Assembly (NCBI GenBank): GCA_016946835.1
Contig: JACVTC010000148.1
Span: forward strand, 302,501-322,500
Length of the DNA: 20,000 nucleotides
Direction: 5' to 3'
Source of the DNA: Neocallimastix lanati (nom. inval.)
Taxonomy: Eukaryota > Neocallimastigomycota > Neocallimastigomycetes > Neocallimastigales > Neocallimastigaceae
The notes under the pieces were generated by a model, which was given only the letters and a program-made list of their open reading frames with translations, did not search any database and had not been told where the DNA came from. The position numbers and the translations under genes were made by a program. Shown here piece by piece: positions 2,290 to 17,640 of this stretch; the stretch's first letter is position 1; each line of letters begins with the position of its first letter.

Positions 2290-2696
2290 TCAATTTGATA
2301 TAATGATATCATTACAATCGTAGAGAATGGACTGTCTGAAATTATCCATGAGAGTGTTATTTAAATATTTTGTGAATCCATACGCTAAATTTTTTTCAGG
2401 TTTGACATAATTCAGTTTAATTTTATTTTCTTTAATTAATTCTCTTACATAATGAAATCTTATATCGATGTGTTTTGTTTTTGGATTTATAGATTGATTT
2501 TTGCTATTGTATATTGTCGCTTTATTATCTACATTGATATTGATGAAGTTTATTTTGAAGTCAAGTTCTTTTAATATATTCAAGTACCAAATACAATGTT
2601 TAGAGCATTCACTGAGACTATAATATTCTGATTCGGCAGTGGAGGTTGAAACGCAGTGTTGAAGCTTAGAACACCAACAAGTTGGTGTTCCCTTCC
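2290..2696 (-). pseudogene. copia pol fragment: RNase H domain
   Basis: This is the C-terminal part of Pol, removing RNA from RNA-DNA hybrids during reverse transcription. In this frame the minus strand shows the copia RNase H signatures: a GTPTCWCSK block, STAESEYYSLSE with the catalytic Glu, NVDNKAT with an Asp, and KHIDIRFHYVRE near the end, also with a catalytic Asp. The first RNase H Asp (DADYAGD) lies upstream in the RT frame. The two frames are separated by a frameshift in the G/A run at 2690-2700 (plus-strand CCCTTCCCCCC). The segment ends at a stop at 2290-2292, just inside the polypurine tract, as expected for the end of pol. The apparent start at 2583 is TTG inside the domain and not a true start. 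Confidence 0.9.
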
Positions 2697-3944
2697 CCCC
2701 ATAGTTATAATGAATCCGGTAGTAGATCTTCTTGTTTCTTCATCTCCAGCATAGTCAGCATCTACATAGGCTATTATTTCTTTTTTCCTTGTGAACCTTA
2801 ATCCAAAATTTATTGTACCTTTTAAATATTTTAATATTTTCATTACGTTATTCCAGTCTTCCATTGTAGGTTCCTTTGCCTTTCTAGCAGCTTTACTTAC
2901 AGCGAAGAGGATGTCAGGCCTAGTACATATTGCCAAATATAGTAAGCTGCCTATAGCTCCTCTGTATTCTGTTTCATTTACCATTTGTTTTCTTAACGTT
3001 TCATTTTCAATTGGTTTTAGATTTCTTGATGGCGCTAACTTTAATATATTATATTTTTCTAATAAATCTTTTAAGTATCTCTTTTGACTTAAAAAATATC
3101 CATCTTTATATTTAATAAATTTTATACCTATCACGAAATCAACATTTCCTATATCCTTTATATTGAATCTATTTTTTATTTTATTTTTTGTAATTTGTAT
3201 TTCTTTATTTTTACCTGCTATTAGAATATCATCTACATATACCCCAAGTATACATGTAATGTTATTTTGATTATTCCTTTTGATATATAGGCATGGTTCG
3301 CTTGTTAATCTTTCAAATCCTATTTTTAAAATAAAACTGTTCAATTGAAGATTCCATTCTCTTCCACTTTGTTTTAGACCATAGATTGCCTTTTTGAGTT
3401 TCCAAAAATATCTTTTGTAATCTTGATGTCCTTCAGGGGGTTTCATGAATACTTCTTCTGTTAGGTTTGCATTTAAATATGCAGCGTTAATGTCAATTTG
3501 TTCTATATTAAAATTGTTTTGTACTGCAAATGCTGTAAGAATTCTTAAGGAATCATGCTTTAAAGTAGGAGAGAAGGTTTCTTTAAAATCTATACCATAT
3601 TGTTGAGTTAATCCTCTAGCTACTAGTCTTGCCTTTCGTTGGATTATATTACCAGATGAGTCCCTTTTATATTTAAATATCTATTTTGAAGATATAAGGT
3701 TTGCATTTTTGGGTAATGTTCTAATTGATTTGTATACATTCAGTCTCTTCATGTTGTTTAGTTCATTTTCAACAACCTTTAACCATTCTGTTTTATCACT
3801 AAGGTTTGATATATCCTTATAACTGTTTGGTTCAATAAGTTTGTTTCCAAATTTTTGTTTCTTGATTGGATTAATGATTTCTTTCTCATATTTTTCATAT
3901 TTTCGTTTTTTACATCTTTGGTTTGACTTTTGCTTATATATAAA
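2697..3944 (-). pseudogene. copia pol fragment: reverse transcriptase (RVT_2)
   Basis: Copia-type reverse transcriptase, which copies element RNA to DNA in the virus-like particle. The frame contains in order an EPNSYKD..EWLKVVENEL segment (from about 3840), RKARLVARGLTQQ, ETFSPTLKHDSLR, LNANLTEE, FMKPPEGH (3446), AIYGLKQSGREW, the catalytic YVDD box (3228-3239), SQKRYLKDLL, GSLLYLAICTRPDI, and DADYAGDEETRRSTTGF at the start of RNase H. Met at 3446 is internal, not a start. An in-frame TAG at 3681-3683 replaces what is normally Trp in the KW.FK motif. Upstream, the frame differs from the integrase/poly-Asn frame, so a frameshift lies between about 3840 and 3944. The catalytic residues are intact but no continuous Pol can be made without bypassing these lesions. 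Confidence 0.93.
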
Positions 3945-5072: not shown

Positions 5073-6059
5073 TTATCTTGTATTATAATTATCTCTTTTT
5101 TGTGTTAGGTTTAAATAATTTCTATTCCCCTTTTTATAATTATTTTTTAATTTTTTTGAATTGTCCTTATTGTAGTTATTAAATCCCTTTCGTTTATTAA
5201 ATTTGGTTTTTTTTCTTAATTGGCATTCGTAAAAATAGTGGCCAATTTTATTGCAGTAGTTACATCTTCCATTTTTCCTTTTTTCTTTAGAATGTTTGTT
5301 GCTTTTCTTTTGTTTGGATCTTTGGTTTTTATTTATATTGAAAATAATATTTTTATTTGTAGAGATGTTACTGCTTGTTTCCTTTAGATTTGAAAGATTT
5401 ATTTCAGGAATGACTTTTTTTACGTAGTTGCAGCATTTTTCCCAGTTGTCAAATTGAAACACATTTATCCATCGCAGGTCTGATGGAAGGCATCTATTCA
5501 GGATTCCTAATTTCAAATTAACACTTAATTCATTATCGATGTCTTCTAAGTCGTTTATGAGATTTTGTAATGTTGCAATAAAAATATTGATGTCTTCTTC
5601 TATATTAAACTTCAATGTTTTTATTTCATTCTCTATTTCTAATTTTCTTTTTCCTGGGCCTTTTGTGAAAGATCCTCGTAGAATTTCCCAGATGTCATAA
5701 GCTATTTTTTCGTTTCCTTCGATTAGTTTTAGAGTTTTGTCATCCAGTCCGTTTATTATCATCCATTTAGTGGTAGTGTCGTTTTCTATGTCTTCAATAC
5801 TAGTTCCCTTTTCATATACAAATAAATCATCAAATTGGTCCTGTATGTATTCTGATAAGTTATCTTTAACATTTTTCTTTCTTAGTTTTTTTATTGTTGG
5901 CTTTAATACATATTTTGTAAGCTTGTTGATTGATAATAAATAAAGTATCTTTCTTGACCATCCTCTGTAATTTTCAGAATAATTGAATGTGATTTGGTTT
6001 TTTCTAGAGTTGTTTTCTTCAGCATCAATAGTGTTAGTTGCAGCTTGTCTTCTTCTCAT
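5073..6059 (-). CDS. gag: copia Gag (nucleocapsid) polyprotein, 328 aa
   Basis: Structural protein that packages element RNA in cytoplasmic virus-like particles. Residues ~25-220 resemble the UBN2/copia-type gag domain, with an early YRGWSRKILYLL segment and AYDIWEIL near 120-127. A CCHC zinc knuckle occurs at C266-x2-C269-x4-H274-x4-C279 (CNYCNKIGHYFYEC), flanked by Lys/Arg-rich tails expected to bind RNA. The ATG at 6059 is the first Met and follows the leader. It ends at TAA 5073-5075 with the protease frame continuing after it. The stop could be natural (readthrough) or a later mutation of a single-ORF gag-pol. This is the only undamaged reading frame of the element, so this copy could still supply Gag. 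Confidence 0.93.
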   Translation of the reverse strand: MRRRQAATNTIDAEENNSRKNQITFNYSENYRGWSRKILYLLSINKLTKYVLKPTIKKLRKKNVKDNLSEYIQDQFDDLFVYEKGTSIEDIENDTTTKWMIINGLDDKTLKLIEGNEKIAYDIWEILRGSFTKGPGKRKLEIENEIKTLKFNIEEDINIFIATLQNLINDLEDIDNELSVNLKLGILNRCLPSDLRWINVFQFDNWEKCCNYVKKVIPEINLSNLKETSSNISTNKNIIFNINKNQRSKQKKSNKHSKEKRKNGRCNYCNKIGHYFYECQLRKKTKFNKRKGFNNYNKDNSKKLKNNYKKGNRNYLNLTQKRDNYNTR

Positions 6060-6382: not shown

Positions 6383-6692
6383 TTTTCAACTTGATTTAAT
6401 ATATCAGTTGACTACTATATTATTTGTTTTCAACTTGATATAATATATCAGTTGACTATTGTATTATTTGTTTTCAACTTGATATACCAGTTGACTATTA
6501 TATTATTTGTTTTCAACTTGATTTAATATATCAGTTGACTATTGTATTATTTGTTTTCAACTTGATATAATATATCAGTTGACTATTATATTATTTGTTT
6601 TCAACTTGATTTAATATATCAATTGACTATTGTATTATATAATATATCAGTTGACTATTATATTATTTGTTTTCAACTTGATATAATATATC
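6383..6692. repeat. 44-bp tandem array in the copia leader, about 8 units
   Basis: Eight recognisable units, each beginning TTTTCAACTTGAT and containing ATCAGTTGACTA. Full units are 44 bp; unit 3 is shortened internally, unit 7 lacks its start and unit 8 its end. From unit 4 onward two variants alternate (GATTTAA with TATTGTA, GATATAA with TATTATA), making an 88-bp higher-order period. Each unit holds an imperfect inverted repeat (CAACTTGATATA against ATATATCAGTTG) able to form a hairpin in RNA. Confidence 0.92.
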
Positions 6693-7864: not shown

Positions 7865-7875
7865 CGTTAGGAATG
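7865..7875. repeat. MULE-B target-site duplication, left (11 bp)
   Basis: CGTTAGGAATG directly abuts the left terminus and is repeated exactly, in the same orientation, at 12415-12425 after the right terminus. Mutator-like transposases make duplications of about 8-11 bp, typically 9. An 11-bp identical match containing four G and one C is very unlikely by chance in DNA this AT-rich. Confidence 0.9.
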
Positions 7876-7921
7876 GGGAGAGCGCGTTTCGGAACCCCAC
7901 GTGAATAGATATAAGCCACAT
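7876..7921 (+). repeat. MULE-B left terminal inverted repeat and subterminal motif
   Basis: It starts GGGAGAGC then GCGTTTCGGAA, the inverse of the right end, followed by CCCCACGTG and an AAGCCACAT motif (7913-7921) that also occurs twice near the right end. The inverted repeat proper is about 19 bp, short for Mutator-like elements, which often have longer ones. Short or divergent termini are known in several MULE groups. Confidence 0.82.
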
Positions 7922-8640
7922 GTTTTTTGAGATGGCGTATTATATATAAATTTTTTATATAAATAAATAATTAAATAATAATTAAATAAATATTTTATTT
8001 TATAATAATTTCATAATTTAATATATATTTGATAATAAAAAATAAAAAAATAAAAAAATAAAAAAATAAAAAAAAAAAAAAAATAAAAAAATAAAAAAAT
8101 AAAAAAATAAAAAAAATAAAAAAATAAAAAAAATAAAAAAAATTAAAAATAAAAAAAAAATAAAAAAAATAAAAAAGATTAAAAAAATAAAATTACAAAA
8201 AAAATAAAATAAAATATTTTCATTTTTATTTATATTTATAACTGTAATTTTTTATTATATAAATAAATAAATAAATAATAATTAAATAAATATTTTATTT
8301 TATAATAAAAAAATAAAATAAAAAAAAGAAAAGATAAATATTTTTTTAGTAATTTTCTTGAAATAAAATAAAATATTTTCATATTTATTTATATTTATAA
8401 CTGTAATTTTTTATTATATAAATAAATAATAATTAAATAAATATTTTATTTTATAATGAAAAAATAAAATAAAAAAAAAAAGATAAATATTTTTTTAGTA
8501 ATTTTCTTGAAATAAAATAAAATATTTTCATATTTATTTATATTTATAACTGTAATTTTTAAAAAAATTGAAAATACATATTAAATAAAAAATAAAAAAT
8601 AAATATTTCATATTTATTAATATTTATATTAAAAATTTTG
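7922..8640. repeat. A-rich left arm with ~150-160-bp tandem repeat
   Basis: No gene is seen. 8035-8200 is almost pure A with spaced T (AAAAAAT-type repeats on the plus strand). From about 8200 a unit containing TATTTATAACTGTAATTTTT recurs with ACTGTAA starts at 8241, 8400 and 8549, so the period is 159 then 149 bp. The promoter of the transposase gene must lie in this arm, but no element can be singled out. Confidence 0.75.
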
Positions 8641-10089
8641 ATGGAGGGAAATCTAAAAATTGATATAAGTGAAACAAATCGAGGAAAAGAGCAAATAATT
8701 ATAGATCGAAAATTTAAATATAATTTTTCAAAATTAAAAAAAGATAATACAAAAATATATAGATGTACAGAATATAAAACATTAAATAAATGTAAGTCTT
8801 TTATTATTTTAAATGATAATAAAGAGGTTTTAAATTATGATTCTTCCCATAATCATCCTGGTAATGAAATTAATGCATCCAAATCATTAATAAAACATAA
8901 AATTAAAGATGAAATAAAAAAAAGTTTGATTCCTTCTGATATAAAATCAAAACGCATATTTGATAAAATTTCTCAAGAAATAGGATATATATGCCCTGAA
9001 TATAAAACAATTAAATCCCAAATAACAAGATATAAAAACAAACAATTATTTCCTAATGTAAAAACATTTGATGAAGTTCCTAATGTATCTGAATATTATA
9101 AAACAATAAGAGGTGAATACTTTATGATATTCAAAAATTCTAATATAATAATTTTTCAATCACCATTCCAAGCAAAATTATTTATGGAGAATAAACATAT
9201 ATTTACTGATGGTACATTTTTAATAGCTCCAACTAATAGTTATCAAGTATTCATTACCAGAACTTATGTTACAGAATTAAATTGTTTTTACACTACTTCC
9301 ATGTCAATATTAAAAAATAAAGAACAAACAACTTACGAAATATTATTTAATGAAATAAAAAAAAATATAATTAAATATAATACAAATATTAATTTCTCAG
9401 AAAAAATTTTTCATTGTGATTTTGAAAAAGGAATATCTAATGCAGTGGAAAATATTTTTCTCAATATAAATATTAAATATTGTTTTTGGCATTATAAAAG
9501 ATTATTAATGACAAAAAAAAATAAATTATGTTACAAGGAAGTGAAAGATCATAATATTTTAAATACTTATTATAAAGCCATTTCTAATTTATGTTTTATT
9601 AATATTGAATACATACCTGATATTTTTAATAAAATTAACAATACATGCATGAGATATAAATCTACCTGTTCCCAATTTTTGAATTTTTTAGATTATTTTG
9701 AGAAAACATTTCTAAATATCTATAATATAAAATATTGGAATTATTACAATAATATAGACCACATAACAAATAATGCTTCAGAATCTTATAACAGTTATTT
9801 AAAAAATTTATTTGTAAAAAAGCCTTCATTTTATAAATTAATATATACAATACAATTTGAAGAATCCAAATCTTACTATGATTACCATATGAGAATTAAA
9901 GGAATTTGGAGAAAAAAGAGCAGAATATCAGAAAGGGTCGATGACATTAATATTTTAGTTGAATATTATAAAAATATGGAAACCGAATTAAAAAATATTG
10001 GATGTAGTAAAAATGATATCATCGAAAATTGGTTTAATTGTTTAATTAGATTGAATAATGAAATCATTAATTTTAATAAAACAAAATAA
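8641..10089 (+). CDS. MULE transposase with FLYWCH zinc finger, 482 aa, intact
   Basis: DDE-superfamily transposase of the Mutator-like group, expected to bind the element ends in the nucleus and cut and paste the element. Numbered from ATG 8641 (a TTG one codon earlier is not a plausible start): an N-terminal FLYWCH-type zinc finger with C42, C51, H70, H72 (YRCTEYKTLNKC..DSSHNHP). Then the MULE domain with catalytic D190 (FTDGTF), D260 (FHCDFEK), the Mutator C-x2-H signature C281-H284 (YCFWHYKR) and E381 (NNASESYN). A basic region KGIWRKKSR follows near residue 420. It is one exon with no stops, ending at TAA 10087-10089. It is closely related to the broken copy at 1-1310, whose indels are absent here. 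The FLYWCH + MULE pairing is known in eukaryotic Mutator-like elements. All catalytic residues are present, so it may be active. Confidence 0.95.
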   Translation: MEGNLKIDISETNRGKEQIIIDRKFKYNFSKLKKDNTKIYRCTEYKTLNKCKSFIILNDNKEVLNYDSSHNHPGNEINASKSLIKHKIKDEIKKSLIPSDIKSKRIFDKISQEIGYICPEYKTIKSQITRYKNKQLFPNVKTFDEVPNVSEYYKTIRGEYFMIFKNSNIIIFQSPFQAKLFMENKHIFTDGTFLIAPTNSYQVFITRTYVTELNCFYTTSMSILKNKEQTTYEILFNEIKKNIIKYNTNINFSEKIFHCDFEKGISNAVENIFLNINIKYCFWHYKRLLMTKKNKLCYKEVKDHNILNTYYKAISNLCFINIEYIPDIFNKINNTCMRYKSTCSQFLNFLDYFEKTFLNIYNIKYWNYYNNIDHITNNASESYNSYLKNLFVKKPSFYKLIYTIQFEESKSYYDYHMRIKGIWRKKSRISERVDDINILVEYYKNMETELKNIGCSKNDIIENWFNCLIRLNNEIINFNKTK

Positions 10090-10936
10090 AAATAATTATT
10101 AAAATCTTTTCAAAATCATAATTACAATTAATTGAAAATTAAATTTTTTTATTTAATAAGAAATTCAATATTGAAATTTATTTAATATTTATTGATAGGG
10201 TTAGCTTAAAAATATTAAAAAAAAATTTTTTTTATAAATTTATTTTAAATATTTTTTACTTTATTAAATATTATTAAATAAAATTAAAAGATGTCTTTAT
10301 TATTATATATTAGTATTATAAAATATTAAAAATATGAATGTATTGCATTTCGCATTATTTTTATTTTATATTGTAGTAAATTAATAAATAAATAAATAAT
10401 TTTTATAAAATAAACTAATTATTAATATATTTTTTAAAAATATATTTAATGTATATTTCATATTTTTAATAAATATTCAAATATACATTTTAAATATATA
10501 TAATGATATTTAAGTATTATAATACTTATAAAAGAAAATAATTAATATTTTAAATTATTTCTATCAGGCTTTCTAAAAAAACTTTACTATTTGTAAAAAT
10601 AATAATACTCTTTTTGTTAGTTTATTAGATTTATATAATATAAATATCTAAAATAATTTATTTATTATTTAATAGAAATTTATGTTTAAAAATGTTATTG
10701 TTATTATTACTATTACTAAAAAAAAGTTTTAATTTAATATTTATAATTAAATTTTCAAATAATCTTTCCTTATCAAGTTAAATATAATGCTCCTGAGTAA
10801 AAAAGATTTTTGTATTATATAAAATTTATTTAAAATATTAGATAAAAAAATATTAAAAAGGAAATAAGAATTTTAAAAAGAATATTTAAAAATAAAATGA
10901 AAAAAATATAGAATGTAATAATATAGAAGTACAAGT
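10090..10936. other. MULE-B right arm, proximal part, noncoding
   Basis: AT-only sequence with no supported gene. GGGTTAGCTTAAAAATATT near 10198 corresponds to the landmark of the MULE-A tandem units, showing that the two arms share ancestry. In MULE-B this block is single-copy. Nothing else is recognisable. Confidence 0.7.
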
Positions 10937-11950
10937 ATATAAAATAAAATAAAATAAAATAAATAGTTGAAATATAAATATGAAGTACAGAATGAATAAA
11001 ATAAAATAAATAGTTGAAATATTAATATAAAGTACAGATTGAATAAAATAAAATAAATAGTTGAAATATAAATATGAAGTACAGAATGAATAAAATAAAA
11101 TAAAATAAAATAAAATAAAATAAAATAAAATAAAATAAAATAAAATAAAATAAAATAAAATAAAATAAAATAAAATAAAATAAAATAAAATAAAATAAAA
11201 TAAATAGTTGAAATATAAATATGAAATACAGATTGAATAAAATAAAATAAATAGTTGAAATATAAATATGAAATACAGATTGAATAAAATAAAATAAATA
11301 GTTGAAATATAAATATGAAATGCAGATTGAATAAAATAAAATAAATAGTTGAAATATAAATATGAAATACAGATTGAATAAAATAAAATAAATAGTTGAA
11401 ATATAAATATGAAATACAGATTGAATAAAATAAAATAAATAGTTGAAATATAAATATGAAATACAGATTGAATAAAATAAAATAAATAGTTGAAATATAA
11501 ATATGAAGTACAGATTGAATAAAATAAAATAAAATAAAATAAAATAAAATAAAATAAAATAAAATAAATAAAATAAAATAAAATAAAATAAAATAAAATA
11601 AAATAAAATAAAATAAAATAAAATAAAATAAAATAAAATAAAATAAAATAAAATAAAATAAAATAAAATAAAATAAAATAAAATAAAATAAATAAAATAA
11701 AATAAAAAAATTATTTGAATTATAATAAAAATACAAGTATTAATAAAAATAAAATAAAATAAAATAAAATAAAAATTTGAATTATAATAAAAATACAAGT
11801 ACTAATAAAATAAAATAAATAAAATAAATATGTGAATAATAATAAATTGCAAGTATCAATAGAAATAAAATAAAATAATATAAAATAAATAAATATGCAG
11901 TGAAATAATAATATATAATATGATAAAATAAAATAAATAAGATATTGATA
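10937..11950. repeat. Composite mini/microsatellite: 47-bp units and (TAAAA)n
   Basis: Ten units of exactly 47 bp, each containing TAGTTGAAATATAAATATGA, start at 10964, 11011, 11058 and, after a (TAAAA)n block (about 11091-11200), at 11205, 11252, 11299, 11346, 11393, 11440 and 11487. A second (TAAAA)n block fills about 11518-11700. Related units with TTGAATTATAATAAAAATAC follow at about 11716 and 11776. Minus-strand frames rich in Phe/Ile/Leu/Tyr run through it because the 5-bp repeat lacks stops; they are not genes. Each 47-bp unit carries its own AAAATAAAAT stretch, so the long blocks probably grew from it. Confidence 0.93.
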
Positions 11951-12347
11951 TGAAATTAATATAAAAACTGAATTTAGCAACAAATAAATTATATAATAAA
12001 GTAAATGATATAGCATATTCATATATATTAACATGAATTTTATTATAATTTTTACAGTATTTTAAATTAATGTAAATTATTATATTTCCATATAATAAAC
12101 AAACTTTATAATTAGAAAATAGTATAAAAAAAAATATTATTAAATATTATTATAAAATAATTAAATGAATAAATTAATAAATAAATAAAAATTTTCAGAA
12201 TATGGCGAATGTAAATCATCATTTTTTTTGAAATATATCACATTTTAAATATTTTTAATAATTATTTTTTCAAAGAAATTATATGTGCCATTTTATTTTA
12301 ATGTTTAAATATTATATTCATAAATAAAAATTTATAAAAAATAATAT
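11951..12347. other. MULE-B right arm, distal part, noncoding
   Basis: AT-rich DNA without a supported gene, structured repeat or RNA. It leads into the terminal region at 12348. Confidence 0.6.
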
Positions 12348-12414
12348 AAGCCACATTCCGAAATGAAAATTTATGTAAAAATATTTAAAGCCACATTCCG
12401 AAACGCACCACCCT
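12348..12414 (-). repeat. MULE-B right terminal inverted repeat and subterminal motifs
   Basis: Read inward on the minus strand it starts AGGGTGGT then GCGTTTCGGAA, matching the left end at the same 8-bp offset. The plus strand carries two copies of AAGCCACATTCCGAAA (12348-12363 and 12388-12403). They correspond to the two GCCA..CGAAATGC motifs at the MULE-A right end. These are likely transposase-binding sites. Confidence 0.82.
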
Positions 12415-12425
12415 CGTTAGGAATG
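12415..12425. repeat. MULE-B target-site duplication, right (11 bp)
   Basis: CGTTAGGAATG, identical to 7865-7875 and directly abutting the right terminus. Confidence 0.9.
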
Positions 12426-16810: not shown

Positions 16811-17312
16811 AATTAAAAACTAAAAATTAACTCTACAATAATTTTTATTTTTATTTTTATTTTTTATTTAGTTTGAATAATTGTAAATTATTATTTCTAT
16901 TATTATTATTATTTCTTTTATTATTAATATTTATTTTATTATTAATATTAATATTATTTTTATTATTTCTATTATTATTATTAATATTTATTTTATTATT
17001 AATATTCATATTATTATTATTAATTCTATTACTATTATTATTTCTATTATTATTATTATTTCTTTTATTATTATTAATATTTATTTTATTATTAATATTT
17101 ATATTTTTATTATTTCTATTATTATTATCTTTATTATTATTATTATTATTTATTTATTAATTAAAAACTAAAAATTAACTCTACAATAATTTTTATTTTT
17201 ATTTTTATTTTTTATTTAGTTTGAATAATTGTAAATTATTATTTCTATTATTATTATTACTTCTTTTATTATTAATATTTATTTTATTATTAATATTTAT
17301 ATTATTATTATT
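16811..17312. repeat. 348-bp tandem duplication with ATT-rich bodies
   Basis: A unique leader beginning AATTAAAAACTAAAAATTAA at 16811 recurs at 17159, and about 115 bp after each start agree nearly base for base. Each leader is followed by ATT/TTA-type repeats with interspersed TTTCT and TTAATATT. The second copy's body has expanded into the 36-bp array. Leu/Ile-rich plus-strand frames (from 16873 and 17221) arise from the TTA repeats and are not called as genes. Confidence 0.88.
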
Positions 17313-17636
17313 AATTCTATTATTATTATTATTTATATTATTATTATTAATTCTATTATTATTATTATTTATATTATTATTATTAATTCTATTATTATTA
17401 TTATTTATATTATTATTATTAATTCTATTATTATTATTATTTATATTATTATTATTAATTCTATTATTATTATTATTTATATTATTATTATTAATTCTAT
17501 TATTATTATTATTTATATTATTATTATTAATTCTATTATTATTATTATTTATATTATTATTATTAATTCTATTATTATTATTATTTATATTATTATTATT
17601 AATTCTATTATTATTATTATTTCTATTATTATTATT
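17313..17636. repeat. 36-bp tandem array, 9 units
   Basis: Units start with AATTCTATT at 17313, 17349, 17385, 17421, 17457, 17493, 17529, 17565 and 17601, exactly 36 bp apart. They are nearly identical, the last diverging slightly (TTTCTATT for TTTATATT). A period divisible by three keeps a frame open, but the content is only AT triplets. High homogeneity points to recent expansion. Confidence 0.93.
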
Positions 17637-17640
17637 ATAA

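Follow-up and report, generated by a model that had tools for sequence, protein, structure and literature searches.

A Mutator-like transposon with a FLYWCH-DDE transposase and its young, high-copy family in a genome that very probably belongs to an anaerobic gut fungus

Introduction

The window analysed here, a stretch of 20,000 nucleotides (C55:302501-322500) from a 199-Mb assembly of 762 contigs, holds an open transposase frame between repeated flanks, which raises the question of whether it contains a complete and mobile transposon and, if so, of what kind. A preliminary description, made from the letters alone, had proposed a complete FLYWCH-type Mutator-like element that is probably autonomous and fairly recent. 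Our data argue strongly for a complete DNA transposon of the Mutator (MULE) type whose FLYWCH-DDE transposase is Phantom/Muta-like in build, and whose family is young and present in many copies.

Host genome and surroundings of the element

The genome holds no fewer than 150 fungal-dockerin (CBM_10) domains, frequently in tandem (the best 150 of 1,440 candidates), compared with 0 of 14 control genomes; the controls named in the COX1 search are prokaryotes. We take such dockerins to mark Neocallimastigomycota, and their number thus makes an anaerobic gut fungus the very probable host. COX1 was not found in the assembly, which may only mean that mitochondrial DNA is absent from it. With an insect host in mind, an arthropod cuticle domain was sought and had no match in the genome, but neither did the control of that search, so that this result carries no weight.

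Outside the element, the window carries a copia-type retrotransposon, represented by RVT_2 reverse transcriptase and gag frames (2580-3446 and 5073-6059, reverse strand), and two tandem arrays, with a 44-bp unit x 6 (6383-6638) and a 36-bp unit x 21 (16887-17637). Part of another, related MULE transposase lies at 220-774 on the forward strand (Pfam MULE 1.3e-11) and is 65% identical to the main transposase over the aligned part. Its genome relatives at 63–68% amino acid identity are numerous and include the main family (best 150 of 2,341 candidates).

Borders and termini of the element

The element was first placed at 7865..12425. An element with real ends is indeed present there, but its borders lie further in, giving a corrected span of 7875-12415 (4,541 bp). 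Its features, in window positions, are as follows.

7866..7874, forward strand: left target-site duplication GTTAGGAAT; found a single time in L072, an empty copy of the target
7875..7894, forward strand: left terminus GGGGAGAGCGCGTTTCGGAA; matches the right terminus imperfectly in inverted orientation, its boundary set by the end pairs sampled
7913..7921, forward strand: left subterminal motif AAGCCACAT; falls within the 39-mer used for the left-end search
8641..10089, forward strand: transposase frame, 482 aa; FLYWCH, D190/D260/E381, C281-x2-H284, W366
10948..11706, forward strand: minisatellite after the frame, 16 units of 47 bp
12322..12403, forward strand: right subterminal tandem unit of ~40 bp, two copies, AAGCCACATTCCGAAA in each
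12395..12415, reverse strand: right terminus, GAGGGTGGTGCGTTTCGGAAT from the outer end; 207 genome matches to the 29-mer
12416..12424, forward strand: right target-site duplication GTTAGGAAT

The 11-bp repeat CGTTAGGAATG reported on both sides is present, but the ends seen in other copies set the length of the duplication at 9, and one of 11 bp was therefore rejected. Since these copies show that the element begins with GGGGAGAGC... and finishes with ...ACCACCCTC, the true duplication is the 9-bp GTTAGGAAT, within the 8–11 bp of the MULE superfamily, and the outer C and G of CGTTAGGAATG are chance identities, one base per side. The inverted GCGTTTCGGAA, an 11-bp core, does stand at an equal offset from both ends; this offset is nine bases from the true ends rather than the eight counted from the earlier borders, and the nine bases outside the core are only partly alike between the two ends. 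The copies have left ends of the form GGGGAGAGC-GCGTTTCGGAACC; their right ends, read inwards, are mostly G(A/G)GGGTGGT-GCGTTTCGGAATGTGGC. The terminal inverted repeats of ~20 bp are imperfect and common to full-size and short copies, as in other MULEs. The subterminal motif AAGCCACAT occurs at both ends as described (7913, 12348, and 12388), running in the same direction at both, with no inverted copy within the element. At the right end, TTTCGGAATGTGGCTT is present as two units with a spacing of about 40 bp.

Transposase and comparison with known elements

The 482-aa frame is intact from the ATG at 8641 to the stop at 10089, and D190, D260, C281-x2-H284, and E381 all stand where they had been placed; W366 is additionally present. 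Pfam recovered the proposed FLYWCH domain at residues 11-72 (8.9e-10) and a MULE domain at residues 188-285 (1.5e-9), both above the curated cut-offs, and the DDE domain with CxxH between the second D and the E is that of the MULE superfamily. By eye, C42, C51, H70, and H72, which we take to be the zinc ligands under the FLYWCH pattern, are all present. NCBIfam gave only a sub-threshold IS256 match (18.6 bits versus a cut-off of 150), no PDB chain matched up to an E of 10, and two scans for relatives in viral contigs returned 2 and 74 pattern matches, none of which was confirmed. The minisatellite after the frame sits inside a wider AAAAT-rich stretch at 10889-11937.

Muta1 of Aedes aegypti is an active MULE (PMC5225508) that has been grouped with Phantom (PMC6446971). 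Its reported features are FLYWCH at 24-92, D214, D283, H307, W401, and E419, and alanine at any of these five residues abolished its activity or nearly so (PMC5225508). The residue spacing in our element and in Muta1 (from PMC5225508) is 70 and 69 for D-D, 24 and 24 for D-H, and 15 and 18 for W-E, respectively. Like Muta1 as described there, the element has an N-terminal FLYWCH, a transposase of ~500 aa and a DDE domain in which a CxxH-type H and a W are closely spaced alike, and its family shows 8–9-bp duplications, several identical copies, and non-autonomous derivatives. Unlike in the mosquito element, the similarity between the ends is limited to ~20 imperfect bp, and the frame is followed by a minisatellite; the two elements are likened here by features. 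Tm1 of root-knot nematodes, of the Phantom subclass, has a 496-aa protein with FLYWCH at 5-66 and a MULE domain at 197-294, and shares the 9-bp duplications and MITE-like relatives (PMC3169594). Tm1 is reported to have Foldback-like composite ends, a gene of seven exons, and just one coding copy, and to lack the last zinc histidine (PMC3169594), whereas our element has four zinc ligands and one open frame, and its family has many intact frames.

Phantom elements are described with 8–10-bp duplications, ends of 18–613 bp or none, and one or two genes; in group 20, the N-terminal domain is absent, FLYWCH or SWIM, and a minisatellite follows the gene in aphid members only (PMC6446971). Our element has both the N-terminal FLYWCH and the minisatellite downstream of the gene. 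The group 20 hosts given in that account are animals and an ichnovirus in its table and stramenopiles in its text (PMC6446971). The present host, very probably an anaerobic fungus, falls outside this list, which describes the group without defining it, so that membership may still hold. The main text of PMC6446971 has no mention of Neocallimast-, chytrid, Piromyces, Orpinomyces, or Anaeromyces, and no report of a FLYWCH MULE in Neocallimastigomycota was found among the open-access titles and abstracts listed.

The most serious alternative is a FLYWCH MULE of another clade, such as the MuDRx or TvMULE groups, outside the Phantom clade, which we rate at somewhat below an even chance. FLYWCH also occurs in MuDRx-Phytophthora, with 9-bp duplications, and in one TvMULE, with 9–11 bp (PMC6446971); against this, a single gene, short ends, a 9-bp duplication, a minisatellite, and Muta1-like spacing are all known in the Phantom group or Muta1, none being shown as exclusive in these accounts (PMC6446971, PMC5225508). 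We file the element provisionally as a FLYWCH-type MULE of Phantom/Muta-like anatomy, a placement made by features.

Copies in the genome

Searching the genome with the element gave 28 long matches including the window, the other 27 at 88–95% identity, a lower bound since these are the best 28 of 7,714 first-look candidates scored. The left-end pattern, a 39-mer from the GCGTTTCGGAA core with up to 3 mismatches, had 159 matches, 100 of which were listed, and the right-end pattern, a 29-mer with up to 2 mismatches, had 207, likewise listed in part. Reversed-pattern controls gave 0 and 0, so the termini are not chance sequences. In the protein search, 60 of the 89 listed matches (88 of 4,144 candidates were scored) span at least 481 of the 482 residues and are stop-free by hand count. 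The 27 loci that were read, the best-scoring ones rather than a random sample, hold 18 distinct frames, each of 482 aa, with eight loci sharing one frame nucleotide sequence. Frame identities are 99.0–99.9%, and the pooled pN/pS of the distinct frames is 0.38, which is no proof of selection because few changes underlie it.

Short internally deleted copies share the ends of the element. Both ends are present in 11 of the 12 extracted (339–902 bp), the C35 copy having no right end, and these copies are non-autonomous because they are too short for the gene. Spans between sampled end pairs are 237–2,020 bp and 4.4–7.0 kb. The intact frames and the copies, together with the empty targets described below, support the view that the element is probably autonomous, and we consider its autonomy likely, with transposition itself inferred from sequence.

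The window copy differs from the 17 other distinct frames by 2 to 11 amino-acid-changing differences. It is unlikely, in our estimate, that it looks open and yet is non-functional, no longer mobile, and carried by other active copies. Consistent with such decay, its frame has five amino-acid-changing and three silent differences from the frame shared by eight loci (L039 versus L042), but its catalytic and zinc residues are present, its ends are intact, its duplication is perfect, and the C312 frame differs from it by just 2 bases in 1,446.

Target-site duplications and empty targets

Target-site duplications were sampled among the left- and right-end matches listed, with the borders fixed, in pairs of the right orientation at most 8 kb apart. 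There were 62 such pairs initially, and one, a second right end beside the C146 copy, was left out. Copies with the same ends and differing duplications, as the preliminary description had anticipated, are common, with an exact 8–10-bp match in 39 of the 61 end pairs. When left and right ends were mismatched as a control, 22 of 5,030 pairs matched by at least 8, comprising 6 exchanged duplications on one contig, 9 matches from one repeated target, and 7 chance matches or shared repeats. No 8–10-bp duplication was found in 22 of the 61 pairs; exchange with another copy explains 7 of these (C743 in part) and not the other 15. Beyond the sampled pairs, inspection by eye showed a 9-bp duplication for the C588 forward copy and no own duplication for either C357 pair. 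The 31 distinct 9-mers show a weakly palindromic insertion preference, RTTTWAAAY, with T left and A right of the centre at 103 versus 57 (p = 3.4e-4) and purine first and pyrimidine last in 41 of 62 (p = 0.015).

An empty target was also found. C165:29346-29495 matches the joined flanks at 99% over all 150 bases and contains GTTAGGAAT once; over ~1.5 kb on each side, it is 97.6% and 98.2% like the window locus, to which it may be allelic or related as another copy of a repeat. The C158 copy, likewise full-length and empty, matches the 150 bases in full at 97% and has a single GCTAGGAAT at the site, and 37 further of the 40 scored flank matches span only bases 58/59-150. The contrary arrangement, CGTTAGGAATG twice without the element, was not seen in loci L072 or L073. 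The differing duplications beside shared ends, the empty targets, and the intact listed protein matches bear out the fairly recent age first suggested.

One 9-bp target, GTTGTAAAC, within a single abundant host repeat was hit at C2:1501549, C146:701595, C390:409417, and C588:656570 (the last by eye), and the right end at C90:1162656 is also at this target, suggesting either a hot target or co-amplification. That part of the copy number reflects co-amplification, with the element carried inside another copied repeat, would fit these five sites and the flanks of the C2 and C146 copies, which are 95.4% alike over 459 bp. We nevertheless regard it as distinctly unlikely, for the host repeat is empty at the exact GTTGTAAAC site in 40 of 40 scored copies (579 first-look candidates) and, family-wide, the 39 duplications comprise 37 distinct sequences. 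Compared over their first 730 bp, the C2 and C146 elements are 88.2% alike with gaps counted, below the identity of their flanks; with gaps left out, the elements have 14 mismatches in 760 columns and the flanks 11 in 459, so that the elements are no less alike.

Exchanged duplications and inversions

Inverted copies with exchanged duplications at five places (C743:794744-853009, C37:21974-27547, C57:1674870-1675814, C78:156452-157742, and C357:660025-669592) are inversions between copies. On C37 and C78, both duplications are swapped between two head-to-head neighbours; on C57, one is swapped, the right end of the partner not being found in L142; on C743, one is swapped between copies 53.6 kb apart; and on C357, a tail-to-tail pair matches at 9/9 and 8/9 by eye. 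The other two C743 flanks resemble, by eye, the two halves of the GTTGTAAAC host repeat with ~15 bp missing, consistent with an inverted segment of about 49 kb. No difference separates the two C743 elements in 4,711 bp, whereas the full-length C55 copy differs from them by 89 mismatches and 314 gap columns, and the full-length C24 copy by 121 and 287.

A single intramolecular replicative transposition, considered for all close inverted pairs, was rejected for C37, C78, and C357, because the paired elements at these places differ (5.1 kb versus 0.5 kb, different internal deletions, and a protein match of 98% without stops versus 90% with four stops, respectively), but not for C743. By one account, chimeric copies with exchanged duplications point to ectopic recombination, and identical copies to hybrid-element insertion (PMC2775673). 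As their partners are unlike, C37, C78, and C357 fit recombination, while C743 fits either recombination or hybrid-element insertion. In Galileo of Drosophila, inverted copies with exchanged duplications likewise flank inverted DNA (PMC2775673, PMC3573991); its P-superfamily transposase, long inverted repeats, and 7-bp duplications are its own, and it is compared for the inversion signature alone. The C588 forward copy and the C65 reverse copy are counter-examples, as each has retained its own duplication, the C65 one, TATTATTAT, being of low complexity. Close pairs are in excess, with 6 left-end pairs less than 2 kb apart (counted by eye) among the 100 listed versus ~0.1 expected at random; C65 is a seventh, its second end lying outside the 100 listed. 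Hot targets may be behind this surplus.

We give little credence to a broader scenario in which a Phantom-type MULE, still mobile today, reached anaerobic gut fungi by transfer across kingdoms, diversified into several families, and reshapes the genome through inversions, at least one of which, the ~49 kb on C743, would have arisen by one-step aberrant transposition of sister-copy ends and not by homologous recombination.

Proposed mechanism and significance

For the FLYWCH-type MULE favoured here, the FLYWCH domain would bind subterminal motifs, the TTTCGGAA and ATGTGGCTT units being candidate sites. The DDE domain would excise the element and reinsert it, probably by cut-and-paste, with a 9-bp stagger, which would leave 9-bp duplications, sometimes 8 or 10, under the weak palindromic preference. 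Short internally deleted copies would be mobilised by the same transposase. The element is ordinary in kind and of good quality rather than a new kind of element, and the inversion signature is the less expected part.

As of 2018, no gene-insertion protocols were available for anaerobic gut fungi, according to one account (PMC5796279). With its many open transposase frames and defined ends, the family is a likely source of host variation and a candidate genetic tool, and the exchanged duplications show its part in rearranging the host genome.
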